37,320 bases of DNA from a virus, in IMG/VR virus record IMGVR_UViG_3300044855_000071, positions 1-37,320 of that record; one strand, written 5' to 3'. Positions 8,890 to 19,358 of this stretch are shown in pieces. Every line of letters begins with the position of its first letter. Position 1 is the stretch's first letter. Made by a program: the position numbers and the translations under genes. The notes under the pieces are model-generated. The model did no database searches. It had not been told where the DNA came from and worked only from the letters and a program-made list of their open reading frames with translations.

Positions 8890-9456
8890 GTGAGCAGCCT
8901 ATACATACTTGAAAACAGTATCGACCTGTTTTACGTAGTTACCGACCGCGACGGGCTTATATTGACCACAAACGACTTATTTCGCGAGTATTCAAGCCAT
9001 TTAAAACCCGAAAATATTGCGGATATAAGCGCAACCGAACCCGACCGCGACGATGTTTTAGCGGCTATCGAAAAGGCAAAGGGCAAAGCGCCCGAACCTA
9101 TACGCGTTTACGCAAAGACAAAGCAAAAAAACGGGGCTTTGCGGTATAACGTTTGGAATATTTACGCAATACTTGATTGTTACCATTTTATAGGCATTCA
9201 GCTAGTCGATGTAACGAGCATAACCAGCCACGAACACGAACGCCAAAAGATATTATTAGAAGAATTTAGGTTTATGTTAAGCCACGAGCTACGCCAGCCG
9301 CTAACCTCGATAGGCGGTTTAGTACGTATGTTAGTTCAGCATGGAAGCGCTAGCGAAAAGGAACGTTTAGAGCTGGTTCGAATGATTGAAGAAAGCGTAA
9401 ACCGCCTCGACGATGTTATAAAGCTACTTGTTAAGAAAGCCGCACGCCAAATATGA
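8890..9456 (+). CDS. PAS plus HisKA protein: histidine kinase lacking its ATPase domain
   Basis: This 188-residue protein starts with a GTG codon; the next Met lies inside the HisKA domain. Residues 5-110 form a PAS sensor domain (IDLFYVVTDRDGLILTTNDLF, then a beta-sheet ending in DVTSI). Residues 112-185 form a histidine-kinase dimerisation domain with the H-box FMLSHELRQPLTS, in which H132 is the expected phosphate acceptor, followed by a second helix (EESVNRLDDVIKLL). The frame stops exactly at the end of that helical hairpin. The HATPase domain with its N and G boxes is missing, and the next frame does not encode it. It cannot phosphorylate itself and may act as a decoy, dimer partner or phosphotransfer protein for a host two-component system. 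The domains are clear; the role is inference. Confidence 0.85.
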   Translation: MSSLYILENSIDLFYVVTDRDGLILTTNDLFREYSSHLKPENIADISATEPDRDDVLAAIEKAKGKAPEPIRVYAKTKQKNGALRYNVWNIYAILDCYHFIGIQLVDVTSITSHEHERQKILLEEFRFMLSHELRQPLTSIGGLVRMLVQHGSASEKERLELVRMIEESVNRLDDVIKLLVKKAARQI

Positions 9457-10748: not shown

Positions 10749-11054
10749 ATGTTACAGATGCATTCAACATTTAAAAACACCGAAAACACCGAGTTTTATT
10801 TATTCGACCATTTAAACGGCGTGCTAACTATGCTCGTTGACGATGGCTGTTTAAAAGGTATCTACACGCGCTGCGATAGCAAATGCGCTGCGATATACCG
10901 TAAATTTAATATCGAGCAAATCGAGGGCGTACCGTTCGAACACCGCATGTACGACGTACTCGAAGCCGCCGAATTTCACAGCCGCTATATTAAAGTAGTG
11001 GACGCCGTTAATCGTAACTTCGATATGTGTTTTACGCAGCCAACCGAAAACTAA
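10749..11054 (+). CDS. Hypothetical early protein
   Basis: This 101-residue protein is acidic to neutral with several Cys and His residues spread along the chain. It starts behind an A-rich leader (CAAACTCTTAAACCC then TTTAAATATG) like the leaders of other early genes here. It is followed by the SSB-like gene after 27 bases. No family is recognised. Confidence 0.6.
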   Translation: MLQMHSTFKNTENTEFYLFDHLNGVLTMLVDDGCLKGIYTRCDSKCAAIYRKFNIEQIEGVPFEHRMYDVLEAAEFHSRYIKVVDAVNRNFDMCFTQPTEN

Positions 11055-11081
11055 TTTTTAAACCCTTTAAACATTTATACT

Positions 11082-15656: not shown

Positions 15657-16643
15657 ATGGTAAAACAACAAAAAGTAACAGAGGACTACGCTATTTATAA
15701 TAGCGATTGTATGTATGTAATTTCTCAAATGCCTGAGAATAGCATCGATTTTTCGGTGTATTCTCCGCCGTTTGCAGGGCTTTACAATTACAGCTCACAC
15801 GAAAACGACTTTAGCAACTGCGAAACTAAAGAGCAATTTTTAGAGCAATACGAATTTTTAATTAAAGAAATGGCGCGGGTAACTAAGCCCGGTAGAATTA
15901 ACGCCGTACATGTTACCGACGTACATACCAATACGGGTAGGCTTTGGGATTTTCCCGGCGAAGTAATACGGCTACACGAAAAATACGGTATGCAATACCA
16001 TAACCGTATAACCATTTGGAAAGAGCCGTTAAAGGTTCGTATGCGTACAATGGTTCAGAGCTTAATGCACAAATTTATAGTAGAAGACGCTACGCGCTGT
16101 TTTACTGCGATGCCTGACTATGTATTAATATTTAAAAAGTCTGGAGAAACAGATACGCCCGTTCAGCACCCTAACGGCTTAAACGACTTCGAGTATTTTG
16201 GCGAAAACCCGTTTTTAAAAGCGCATGAAGAAACCTACGGTAATTATTCAGACTTTAGAAAAAAGTGGGCAAAGTTTAGCGGCGACCAACGAGAAAACAA
16301 ACTATCGCATTTAACATGGCAGCGGTACGCTTCGAGCGTTTGGGACGATGTAAGGATAGATAACGTGTTACAATTTAAAGATAGTCGCGAAGAAGACGAC
16401 GAAAAGCACGTACACCCCTTGCAATTAGATGTAATTGATAGGCTAGTATATTTATACACTAACCCCGGCGAAACGGTATTAACGCCTTTTATGGGCGTAG
16501 GTAGCGAGGTTTATAGCCCTGTATCTATGGGTAGAAAGGCTATCGGTATTGAGCTAAAGGATAGCTATTTTAAACAGGCTATAATTAATTTAAAAGAGGT
16601 TAATAGCCGTTTTCAAAAGTTTGAACAGCCCGAACTTTTTTAG
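15657..16643 (+). CDS. DNA methyltransferase, N4/N6 amino type, beta class
   Basis: This 328-residue protein has the catalytic motif IV first (FSVYSPPF, residues 32-39) and the AdoMet-binding motif I near the C-terminus (LTPFMGVGS, with GIEL after it), which is the beta-class order. SPPF is more usual in N4-cytosine enzymes, but N6-adenine cannot be excluded. The central region with IWKEPLKVRMRT and MHKF is typical of the variant paired with phage helicases. No restriction endonuclease is recognised beside it, so it probably protects phage DNA from host restriction or marks it. Confidence 0.87.
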   Translation: MVKQQKVTEDYAIYNSDCMYVISQMPENSIDFSVYSPPFAGLYNYSSHENDFSNCETKEQFLEQYEFLIKEMARVTKPGRINAVHVTDVHTNTGRLWDFPGEVIRLHEKYGMQYHNRITIWKEPLKVRMRTMVQSLMHKFIVEDATRCFTAMPDYVLIFKKSGETDTPVQHPNGLNDFEYFGENPFLKAHEETYGNYSDFRKKWAKFSGDQRENKLSHLTWQRYASSVWDDVRIDNVLQFKDSREEDDEKHVHPLQLDVIDRLVYLYTNPGETVLTPFMGVGSEVYSPVSMGRKAIGIELKDSYFKQAIINLKEVNSRFQKFEQPELF

Positions 16644-16651
16644 TATCTTTA
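16620..16651 (+). promoter_or_regulatory. Promoter of the initiator-like gene
   Basis: The -33 box TTTG (16620-16623) and the -7 box TATCTTTA (16644-16651, one mismatch to TAnnTTTG) are 20 bases apart. The predicted start near 16655-16657 coincides with the first base of the leader hairpin. It overlaps the end of the methyltransferase gene. Confidence 0.55.
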
Positions 16652-16655
16652 AGCG

Positions 16656-16756
16656 TTCAGAACTCGAAACCTGAATGTTAAGAAATTAATTTTTTGCCCT
16701 TTGGGTTTACGAGGTAAGGTATATCCGAGCCGTTTCGAGCGTAAATTTCAAAGGGC
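16656..16756 (+). promoter_or_regulatory. Structured leader RNA with complementary loops (possible riboregulator)
   Basis: Hairpin 1 is TTCAG (16656-16660)/CTGAA (16671-16675) with a 10-nt loop. Hairpin 2 is GCCCTTTG (16696-16703)/CAAAGGGC (16749-16756), extended by TTTACG (16706-16711)/CGTAAA (16740-16745). Loop 1 contains CTCGAAAC (16663-16670), perfectly complementary to GTTTCGAG (16732-16739) in loop 2 and directly abutting the inner stem. The whole can form a kissing-loop or pseudoknot fold that ends 9 bases before the start codon at 16766. No known riboswitch class is recognised. Confidence 0.65.
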
Positions 16757-16765
16757 TTATTTTTT

Positions 16766-17383
16766 ATGAAGAAATCATTTGTACTTTATTGCGATACATA
16801 CGACACGCTCCAGCATTTAAACGACGAGCAATTAGGTAAGCTAACGCGCTTAATATTTGAATATCAAATAAACGGCTCAACGCCCGAACCTAGCAACCCG
16901 TTATTTATCGCTTTTGGCTTCATTAAATCGAGCTTAGATAGGGACTGTTTAAAGTACGAAGAACGCGCCGAAAGGGCTAGGGAAAACGGGGCTAAAGGTG
17001 GGCGACCTATTAAAAACCTAGTGGGTAAAACAGAAACCCAAAAAACCCAGCGGGTTATTTTAAAACCCAAAAAACCTGATAGTGTAAGTGTAAGTGATAG
17101 TGTAAGTGTTAATGATAGTGTTAATGTAAACTTTAAAAAGTGGGGCGCTAAAGAGTTAATCGAAAGCATGAAGCCCTTTAAGGATATATTTAACCGCGAA
17201 ATGCTAAACGCCTTTTATGAATACTGGAGCGAGCCTATGCCAAACGGTAAGATACGGTTAACCGCACAAACAGCTTGGGACACTAAACGCAGGCTTAGTA
17301 CATGGAATAAACGCGACGCCACCAAACAACCGCAAACCGCGCCAACGCTTACGCGAGCATCGAGGGGCGTTAAAATGGAATAA
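16766..17383 (+). CDS. Replication initiator-like protein (DUF6291 type)
   Basis: This 205-residue protein has the N-terminal domain of phage replication-region proteins (FVLYCDTYDTLQHLNDEQLGK, then RLIFEYQING, then RARENGAKGGRP), which I assign to the DUF6291 type. A low-complexity linker of alternating Asp/Ser/Val/Asn follows (about residues 105-122). The C-terminal part (LNAFYEYWSEP, TAWDTKRRLSTWNKR) resembles the DNA-binding or helicase-loading tail of such proteins. It precedes the DnaB gene by one cassette. The linker DNA is made of three 18-bp repeats, as in lambda-type origins located within the initiator gene. Its mRNA leader is strongly structured. Confidence 0.7.
   Translation: MKKSFVLYCDTYDTLQHLNDEQLGKLTRLIFEYQINGSTPEPSNPLFIAFGFIKSSLDRDCLKYEERAERARENGAKGGRPIKNLVGKTETQKTQRVILKPKKPDSVSVSDSVSVNDSVNVNFKKWGAKELIESMKPFKDIFNREMLNAFYEYWSEPMPNGKIRLTAQTAWDTKRRLSTWNKRDATKQPQTAPTLTRASRGVKME
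17034..17131 (+). other. Candidate replication origin with iterons inside the initiator gene
   Basis: Three consecutive 18-bp repeats begin with GATAGT: GATAGTGTAAGTGTAAGT (17078-17095), GATAGTGTAAGTGTTAAT (17096-17113) and GATAGTGTTAATGTAAAC (17114-17131). They are preceded by two copies of AAACCCAAAAAACC (17034-17047 and 17063-17076). Iterons of this length in the linker of an initiator gene next to A-rich DNA match the lambda O arrangement. Origin function is inferred. Confidence 0.5.
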
Positions 17384-17981: not shown

Positions 17982-19358
17982 ATGAAACCGCTCCCGAAAA
18001 TAGAACAAGCATTAATTTATATTTCGCTTTTAAACGACGATACGTGGCGCGAAATTATACCGCAGCTATCTGAACACCACTTTAAGGACGAACTAGCGTT
18101 AAAATGCTTTAAAACGATTAAAAACATAATAGCAGATAACAAGCAACCCACGCTAATAACGTTAGCTCAGTTCGGGCGCGTCGAGAAAACCTTTACAGGC
18201 TCAGACCTTTCAGCTATTACCAGCTGGGGCGACGAGTTTTATTTTAACCAGCCTGTAAACGATTATATCGCTATTCTAAAGGACGAACATATTAAACGCC
18301 AAATTAACTCGGTAATGGTCGAAGCCTCGCTAGAATTTAGCGGCTTACGCGGCGGCGCTCAAACCGCAGCTGAAATAATTAAACGCCTTAACACGCTACT
18401 CGAGGACGGCGCTAGTAATGATAACATGCTAGACACGTTAACCCTAGCAGCTGAAGAACGGCAAGCCTATTACCGCCGCGCCGAACTGCATTTAAGCGGT
18501 AAAACAAGCGGATTAAATACAGGGTTAAGCGCGTTAAATAGGTTTACAGGAGGTTTTCACCCCGAACTAATAATACTAGCGGGTCGCCCGTCGATGGGCA
18601 AAACAGCGCTCGCATTATACCACGCCTGCAATTTCAACGAGCCGGGTATATACTTTAACCTCGAAATGAATAAAAGCCAACTATGCCAGCGGCTAATACT
18701 TCAGCATTCGAGCGAAAGGATTAACAGCGCACGCCTACGCGATGGTAATTTAACGCAGCCCGAACTACATGCCTTTGAAACTACGATAGGCACGGTTGAA
18801 AATTTGCCCTTTCTTATTTACGATAAGCCGCGTTGCGGCGTTCATGAGGCGATACGTGTTATGCGCCGCGAAGCCCGCAAAGGAAATTGTAAATGGGTTA
18901 TAATCGACTATTTGCAGCTAATGACTATCGAGGGCTTCAGAGGCGGCAACCGCGAGGCAGAGGTAGCCGAAATAAGCCGCACGCTAAAAGCCGCGCAAAA
19001 GGAGCTTAACATTCCTGTTATAGCCCTTGCGCAGCTTTCGCGTCAGGTTGAGCAACGCGCCGACAAACGACCGATACTTTCTGACTTGCGCGAAAGCGGC
19101 TCAATAGAACAGGACGCCGACACGGTTATATTTATTTACCGACCCGAATACTACGCGCTAAACGACGAACTCGGCAACCCGTATAGCTCCGACGTTTTTT
19201 ACCTATTCGAGAAACACCGCCAAGGCTCGACGGGCGAAGTGAGGTTTAAGCATAATAGCACGATAACCAGCTTTAGCGATATTGCAACTAGCGGCGGTAG
19301 CACCTTTGCGCCTATGCCTATAAATACTACCTTTGACGAAGAACTAATGCCCTTTTAA
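17982..19358 (+). CDS. dnaB: Replicative DNA helicase, DnaB family
   Basis: This 458-residue helicase unwinds the replication fork as a ring hexamer. The N-terminal domain (about 1-110) is the DnaB helical domain. The ATPase core has Walker A GRPSMGKT (201-208), Walker B WVIIDYLQLM (305-314) and the DnaB signature LSDLRESGSIEQDADTVIF followed by RPEYY. The sequence ends in an acidic tail. Length is normal. No phage primase or DNA polymerase is recognised, so it probably recruits the host primase and polymerase, loaded by the initiator-like protein at 16766. Confidence 0.95.
   Translation: MKPLPKIEQALIYISLLNDDTWREIIPQLSEHHFKDELALKCFKTIKNIIADNKQPTLITLAQFGRVEKTFTGSDLSAITSWGDEFYFNQPVNDYIAILKDEHIKRQINSVMVEASLEFSGLRGGAQTAAEIIKRLNTLLEDGASNDNMLDTLTLAAEERQAYYRRAELHLSGKTSGLNTGLSALNRFTGGFHPELIILAGRPSMGKTALALYHACNFNEPGIYFNLEMNKSQLCQRLILQHSSERINSARLRDGNLTQPELHAFETTIGTVENLPFLIYDKPRCGVHEAIRVMRREARKGNCKWVIIDYLQLMTIEGFRGGNREAEVAEISRTLKAAQKELNIPVIALAQLSRQVEQRADKRPILSDLRESGSIEQDADTVIFIYRPEYYALNDELGNPYSSDVFYLFEKHRQGSTGEVRFKHNSTITSFSDIATSGGSTFAPMPINTTFDEELMPF

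Follow-up and report, generated by a model that had tools for sequence, protein, structure and literature searches.

A kissing-loop leader with fast-changing complementary words suggests a possible self-specific RNA switch in the control of phage replication

The leader of a phage replication operon raises the question of whether its RNA adopts the fold that its letters suggest and, if so, what that fold controls. The window, that is, the whole stretch of DNA analysed, is a 37,320-bp virus record read as a Bacteroidota-type phage, in which terminase, portal and tape-measure genes are present. Upstream of the leader a methyltransferase gene ends at 16643, and the leader fills the gap up to the ATG of a DUF6291 gene (16766; Table 1). 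An earlier note, made from the letters alone, had described this gap as two hairpins with 8-nt complementary loops, forming a compact tertiary fold that could sense a ligand or a protein and control replication.

The hairpins, the pairing and the first loop were as described, and the complementarity between 16663-16670 and 16732-16739 is exact; the second word, however, is not an apical loop and lies in the 3' strand of an asymmetric internal loop between P2 and P3. Both hairpins are well formed, being contained in the minimum-energy fold (z = -2.53; 4/200 dinucleotide shuffles fold as well). The predicted RNA 5' end falls at the hairpin 1 stem, in agreement with the note, as does the distance of nine bases between the end of the second stem and the start codon (16756 vs. 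ATG 16766). Dinucleotide shuffles of the single sequence gave the same topology in 111 of 20,000 cases; the topology of one sequence is thus unusual, not decisive, and it is the homologues that decide.

Table 1. Leader and replication operon in the window, and words of cultured phages.
Feature	Position	Strand	Description
Candidate -33 element	16620-16623		TTTG; 20 nt upstream of the -7-like element
Promoter -7-like element	16644-16651	+	TATCTTTA; Bacteroidota TAnnTTTG type, by sequence; 2 nt before hairpin 1
Hairpin 1 (P1)	16654-16677	+	Stem 16654-16660 with 16671-16677; 10-nt loop 16661-16670
Word 1	16663-16670	+	CTCGAAAC; in the hairpin 1 loop; U-N-R (U-turn-like) signature
Inter-hairpin linker	16678-16695	+	A/U-rich
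Hairpin 2	16696-16756	+	P2a 16696-16703 with 16749-16756; P2b 16705-16710 with 16741-16746
Hairpin 2, inner parts			GA 16711-16712 (conserved); P3 16713-16731, an apical stem-loop; word 2 flanked by P3 and the 3' strand of P2b
Possible competing local hairpin	16696-16706	+	GCCC-UUU-GGGU; weak here; mutually exclusive with P2; suggestive only
Word 2	16732-16739	+	GTTTCGAG; exact (reverse) complement of word 1
U-tract	16757-16765	+	TTATTTTTT; directly 3' of hairpin 2, ends at the start codon; intrinsic-terminator-like
DUF6291 protein, putative replication initiator	16766-17383	+	Operon gene 1; PF19808, E=3.6e-25
DnaB-type replicative helicase	17982-19358	+	Same operon, further downstream; PF03796, E=2.4e-80
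Flavobacterium phages sniff/tooticki/hemulen			Word GTGAGACG; exact complement in terminator hairpin
Flavobacterium phage morran9-1			Word GTGAGAAG; exact complement in terminator hairpin
Flavobacterium phages mumin/snusmum			Word GTGGAACG; exact complement in terminator hairpin
elemoA			Words GTGAGAGC (complement 7/8 letters) and GTGAGATG (exact), in terminator hairpin
elemoE			Word GTGGAGG; exact complement in terminator hairpin
Phage 11b			Word CGGGCAGG; exact complement in terminator hairpin
Olleya phage Harreka_1			Word GTGGTGG; exact complement in terminator hairpin
Cellulophaga phi19:1			Word GTACGAC; exact complement in terminator hairpin

Homologous leaders were collected in two ways. 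A search with the DUF6291 protein led to 33 viral contigs, and nearly all close relatives carry the same leader with changed loop letters and retained complementarity. Pattern scans in which a single side was specified, either that of hairpin 2 or that of hairpin 1 with short flanks, led to about 120 contigs and left the partner letters free of selection; these patterns account in part for the conserved outer letters of the words, and the loci found through the protein and the isolates show the same trend. Across 28 aligned leaders, eight of nine possible loop-loop pairs are formed in every sequence (28/28), the ninth being optional, and four of them have changed on both sides, in up to 14 sequences and without G-U intermediates. 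In the same alignment 97% of cells are paired in the hairpin 1 stem, which includes a covarying pair, and 99.7% in P2, where seven pairs have changed on both sides; measures of the whole structure exceed all shuffles (0/500) and all slid controls. When 78 distinct leaders were parsed individually, the core word cells were Watson-Crick in 624/624 cases spread over 17 different 8-letter words, counts that represent related sequences and not independent events, and the stems surrounding the words contain 6 to 14% G-U vs. none in the words. The compensatory changes on which the earlier note had staked its tertiary fold are thus present, and comparison of the leaders makes fold and kiss nearly certain, with support for the tertiary fold that appears about as good as comparative data allow. 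One 52,227-bp contig holds two leaders (L013 and L010) with different words about 34.7 kb apart, and is either a chimeric assembly of two phages or a case of two real copies.

The absence of G-U pairs is also what would be expected of identical double-stranded sites, so that the words might be two inverted copies of a DNA site for a fast-evolving phage protein, with complementarity as a by-product. This is very improbable, because on several backbones unrelated to one another the words occupy precisely the hairpin 1 loop and the open hairpin 2 strand, the G-U pairs of the surrounding stems are of the RNA type, and the flanks of the two sites are unlike each other.

The same design, comprising promoter, 5' hairpin, complement-bearing terminator hairpin, U-tract and replication genes, recurs on unrelated backbones. 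A detector for a terminator hairpin with a complementary upstream word fired in 27/55 more distant DUF6291 leaders, mostly with word 1 in the loop of a 5' hairpin, vs. 1/550 shuffles and about 5/414 other ORF starts of these phages. It also fired in two phages upstream of ORF 11082 (TTTAATAT; about 10900-11081 in the window, and L284), which may be chance in A/T-rich DNA. The second backbone, B (GTTAACTG type), has classic loop-loop complementarity of 6-7 nt, and its 12 aligned leaders contain 30 cells changed on both sides (0/500 shuffles). Among cultured phages, whose leaders were located via the DUF6291 protein, the carriers are Lillamyvirus, Muminvirus, Elemovirus, 11b, Harreka_1 and phi19:1, and isolates on the same host show compensated word changes (Table 1). 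Phages phi13:2 and phi19:3 have 9-nt complementarity and a terminator without an evident hairpin 1; the roles of the words look swapped in both. In L351, L371 and phi13:2 (L277, about 2892-2950) it is hairpin 2 that carries the purine-rich word usual for hairpin 1, and the 5' segment that carries the complement. The design is absent from the leaders of Vibrio phage 1.265 and MT835521 and, as inspected by eye, of Riemerella CRP5. Blastn of the backbone A and B leaders against isolate phages and plasmids gave no match. A covariance-model search of 395 Bacteroidota genomes also gave none, but was uninformative for want of a positive control. A pattern scan of genome contigs proved too loose, and its matches in G+C-rich genomes were discarded as noise.

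The position of the leader bears on what it may control. In essentially all readable loci it heads the replication operon, as the earlier note had placed it, and the first-gene slot in relatives is filled by replication-initiation O-like proteins instead of DUF6291. Behind it comes DUF6291 or an O-like protein, or else the initiator preceded by an HNH endonuclease, a methyltransferase or a small ORF, and then DnaB or a protein of about 312 aa. In five loci (L090, L255, L059, L085, L258) genes for HNH or NUMOD-type endonucleases and DNA methyltransferases replace the initiator directly 3' of the leader, and the spot after the U-tract resembles an insertion site. Structure prediction for the DUF6291 protein gave a weak model (pLDDT 64) and no fold match. 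Within its gene, short tandem-like repeats (GTAAGTG / GATAGTG / GTTAATG; 17078-17133), which encode a DSVSVSDSVS linker and have blastn matches in 84 phage records, could be origin iterons inside an initiator gene, as in lambda O. Elsewhere in the window (8890-9456) lies a protein with a match to HisKA, the histidine-kinase dimerisation domain (E=3.6e-9), which is unexpected for a phage.

A promoter and a terminator appear to delimit the leader. All 78 homologous leaders have TAnnTTnn upstream of hairpin 1, at a distance of 2-5 nt in 74 of them, and the -33 element is unconserved (18/78). In 76/78 leaders hairpin 2 is succeeded by a T-run (at least 6 T within 8 positions) vs. 10% of ORF starts in the same phages; with a G+C-rich stem and the T-run directly behind it, hairpin 2 and the U-tract resemble an intrinsic terminator placed immediately ahead of the start codon. 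Simulated folding of the nascent RNA suggests that the word helix can arise, along with hairpin 1, P3 and a local GCCC...GGGC hairpin, ahead of the 3' half of hairpin 2, and that the terminator stem prevails only once complete. Since the word helix can form before that point, the kiss is placed to tune the timely closure of the terminator. Kiss and terminator stem are mutually compatible, and the fold alone thus gives no switch. The competing local hairpin is stronger in relatives (e.g., GUCACC-CUAU-GGUGAC) and is restricted to backbone A, for which reason a universal antiterminator hairpin was rejected.

Attenuation of transcription by the leader is likely. The reading that we prefer, with somewhat better than even confidence, is a cis-acting kissing-loop attenuator that heads the phage replication operon and whose word is a self-specificity tag. 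Transcription would start at hairpin 1, and the loop with word 1, held open by its U-turn-like signature, would pair with word 2 upon its emergence. The P2/P3 hairpin and U-tract would then act as an intrinsic terminator that extends up to the start codon of the first gene, and the kiss would set how frequently the polymerase stops and hence the amounts of initiator and helicase. We infer both the termination and the direction of this effect, and likewise that the words serve as self-specificity tags that prevent cross-regulation among related phages in one cell. A rival reading is translational control as in ColIb-P9/IncB repZ, in which the pseudoknot and the P2 stem would govern the access of ribosomes instead of termination: the stable hairpin stops 9 nt short of the AUG, and known plasmid initiators are regulated in this manner (cited in PMC10724649). 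Such control is quite unlikely here, given that the leader has no leader peptide and no Shine-Dalgarno sequence to mask, that the U-tract adjoins the stem also in leaders whose AUG is 15-25 nt more distant, and that the first gene varies.

The turnover of the words suggests what the kiss may distinguish. Words change at about three times the rate of the rest of the leader (closest pair classes), and they already differ in 7/27 leader pairs that have only 1-2 differences over about 83 other positions. The pairs L106/L109, L074/L038 and L251/L255 each have one other difference and two word base pairs exchanged on both sides. Furthermore, the same word reappears on different backbones, a pattern suggestive of diversifying selection or of allele exchange. 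Different words occur among phages of one host; the host therefore does not set the word, and host-determined words were rejected. The minimal difference between words is one base pair, so that word specificity may be incomplete. Within the loops the U-N-R signature keeps a fixed register in 21/21 backbone A loops and is found in backbones B and C and most isolates; the base before it is usually G, and the strict YUNR form is mostly absent. The strict Watson-Crick rule and the rapid turnover would fit a self-specificity tag, by analogy with plasmid incompatibility RNAs and P4.

This turnover also bears on the ligand sensing proposed in the earlier note. A ligand pocket would be conserved, whereas no part of the leader evolves faster than the paired letters, and this leaves sensing through the kiss unsupported; a protein that reads the shape of the leader and not its letters is possible. 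A metabolite riboswitch or self-cleaving ribozyme on a kissing-loop scaffold would accord with a compact pseudoknotted fold upstream of genes and with the conservation of some letters (GA where P2 meets P3, the A-rich linker). It is nevertheless highly doubtful, as the tertiary contact evolves fastest, the conserved letters vary between backbones of the same design, and there is no Rfam match.

Trans action between phages is plausible. The terminated RNA of about 105 nt would be well suited to act in trans as a copy sensor or to signal superinfection, and in antisense systems U-turns accelerate the pairing of loops (PMC4485353, PMC6562991). Taken further, the leader might be an independent small RNA gene, complete with promoter and terminator, that works mainly in trans, loop 1 or word 2 pairing with the nascent leader of a same-word phage and silencing the replication operon of that phage, for superinfection exclusion or copy control in the manner of P4 CI or C4. 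The complete cassette of promoter, RNA and terminator is indeed kept while the gene behind it changes, the words diversify fast and differ among phages of one host, and U-turn loops are typical of quick intermolecular pairing. However, in 4/11 near-complete genomes the word occurs only twice, with no third copy, and no antisense -7 element (reverse TAnnTTTG) is found in the leader (0/78), a promoter of another type being possible; a separate antisense locus as a general feature was rejected on these grounds, and leader-leader pairing alone remains. Intramolecular pairing should outcompete it, and the carriers appear lytic, which makes a mainly trans-acting RNA rather unlikely. Tyrosine integrase (PF00589) was found in none of 14 records, fragments or near-complete, and mumin-type phages are reported lytic (PMC7077304). 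Classical lysogenic immunity thus probably does not explain the diversification, and any trans effect would concern co-infection, not lysogeny.

Taken together, matching letters that vary yet stay complementary point to an RNA switch, self-specific and so far undescribed, that would act on phage replication; the terminator with its U-tract, the hypervariability of the words and the generality of the design are additions to what the earlier note contained. A bolder proposal, which we hold tentatively as less than an even chance, is an undescribed class of phage RNA in which a private word, quick to evolve and strictly Watson-Crick, is common to a terminator hairpin and a 5' loop and serves as the on/off key of a lineage's replication, diversifying because same-word leaders of co-infecting relatives can silence each other (RNA-based superinfection incompatibility in lytic phages). 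Many Flavobacteriia phages seem to have in common an RNA control of replication that is in no family library. Plasmid-style incompatibility RNAs would be linked to lytic phages, with RNA-based superinfection exclusion directly testable, and the natural word variants, some of them from cultured phages that share a host, already amount to an experiment in compensatory mutation. Many natural kissing-loop pairs would also be supplied for RNA engineering.

Among known systems, Rfam at gathering and relaxed thresholds returned chance matches only, with no C4, other phage RNA, riboswitch or ribozyme family, in keeping with the earlier note, which had recognised no known riboswitch or ribozyme. The pistol ribozyme has a similar topology, in which the loop of a 5' hairpin pairs with an internal loop between stacked stems, and an A-rich linker; its paired strand, however, is on the opposite side of the internal loop, Rfam gives no match, and what we take to be the pistol core letters are absent from the phage leader. 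The fully complementary 6-7 nt loops of backbone B resemble those of ColE1 RNA I/RNA II, which are two separate RNAs, whereas the phage leader is one. The pT181 and pIP501 attenuators share attenuation before a rep gene, loop-loop kissing and U-turn loops, but these plasmid systems need a countertranscript, whereas here the kiss lies within one RNA. In the IncIalpha/IncB/IncK rep leaders (ColIb-P9 repZ, antisense RNAI), too, an upstream hairpin loop in the leader of a replication initiator pairs downstream as a pseudoknot, and the loop letters decide the plasmid compatibility groups, for which one RNAI loop nucleotide can suffice (PMC10724649). Unlike these, the leader of about 110 nt is found in phages, has no antisense promoter (0/78 reverse TAnnTTTG) and no repY-like leader peptide (no ORF of at least 60 aa between 16643 and 16766), and its pairing is 8-9 bp long, fully Watson-Crick and diverse in words, with the partner inside a terminator hairpin. 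In the RNA immunity of P4 (CI) and P1/P7 (C4), short complementary leader segments likewise belong to a phage replication or antirepressor operon, and in P4 leader RNA pairing halts transcription into the replication genes, which are controlled by premature termination (PMC4825925). P4 has a processed CI RNA with upstream and downstream targets, whereas here there are two words, one per hairpin, with no third complementary segment (4/11 near-complete genomes), no Rfam C4 match and carriers that appear lytic. Outside all curated RNA families, and without an antisense partner, the leader would by analogy act most like the replication-control RNAs of plasmids and of the P4 type.
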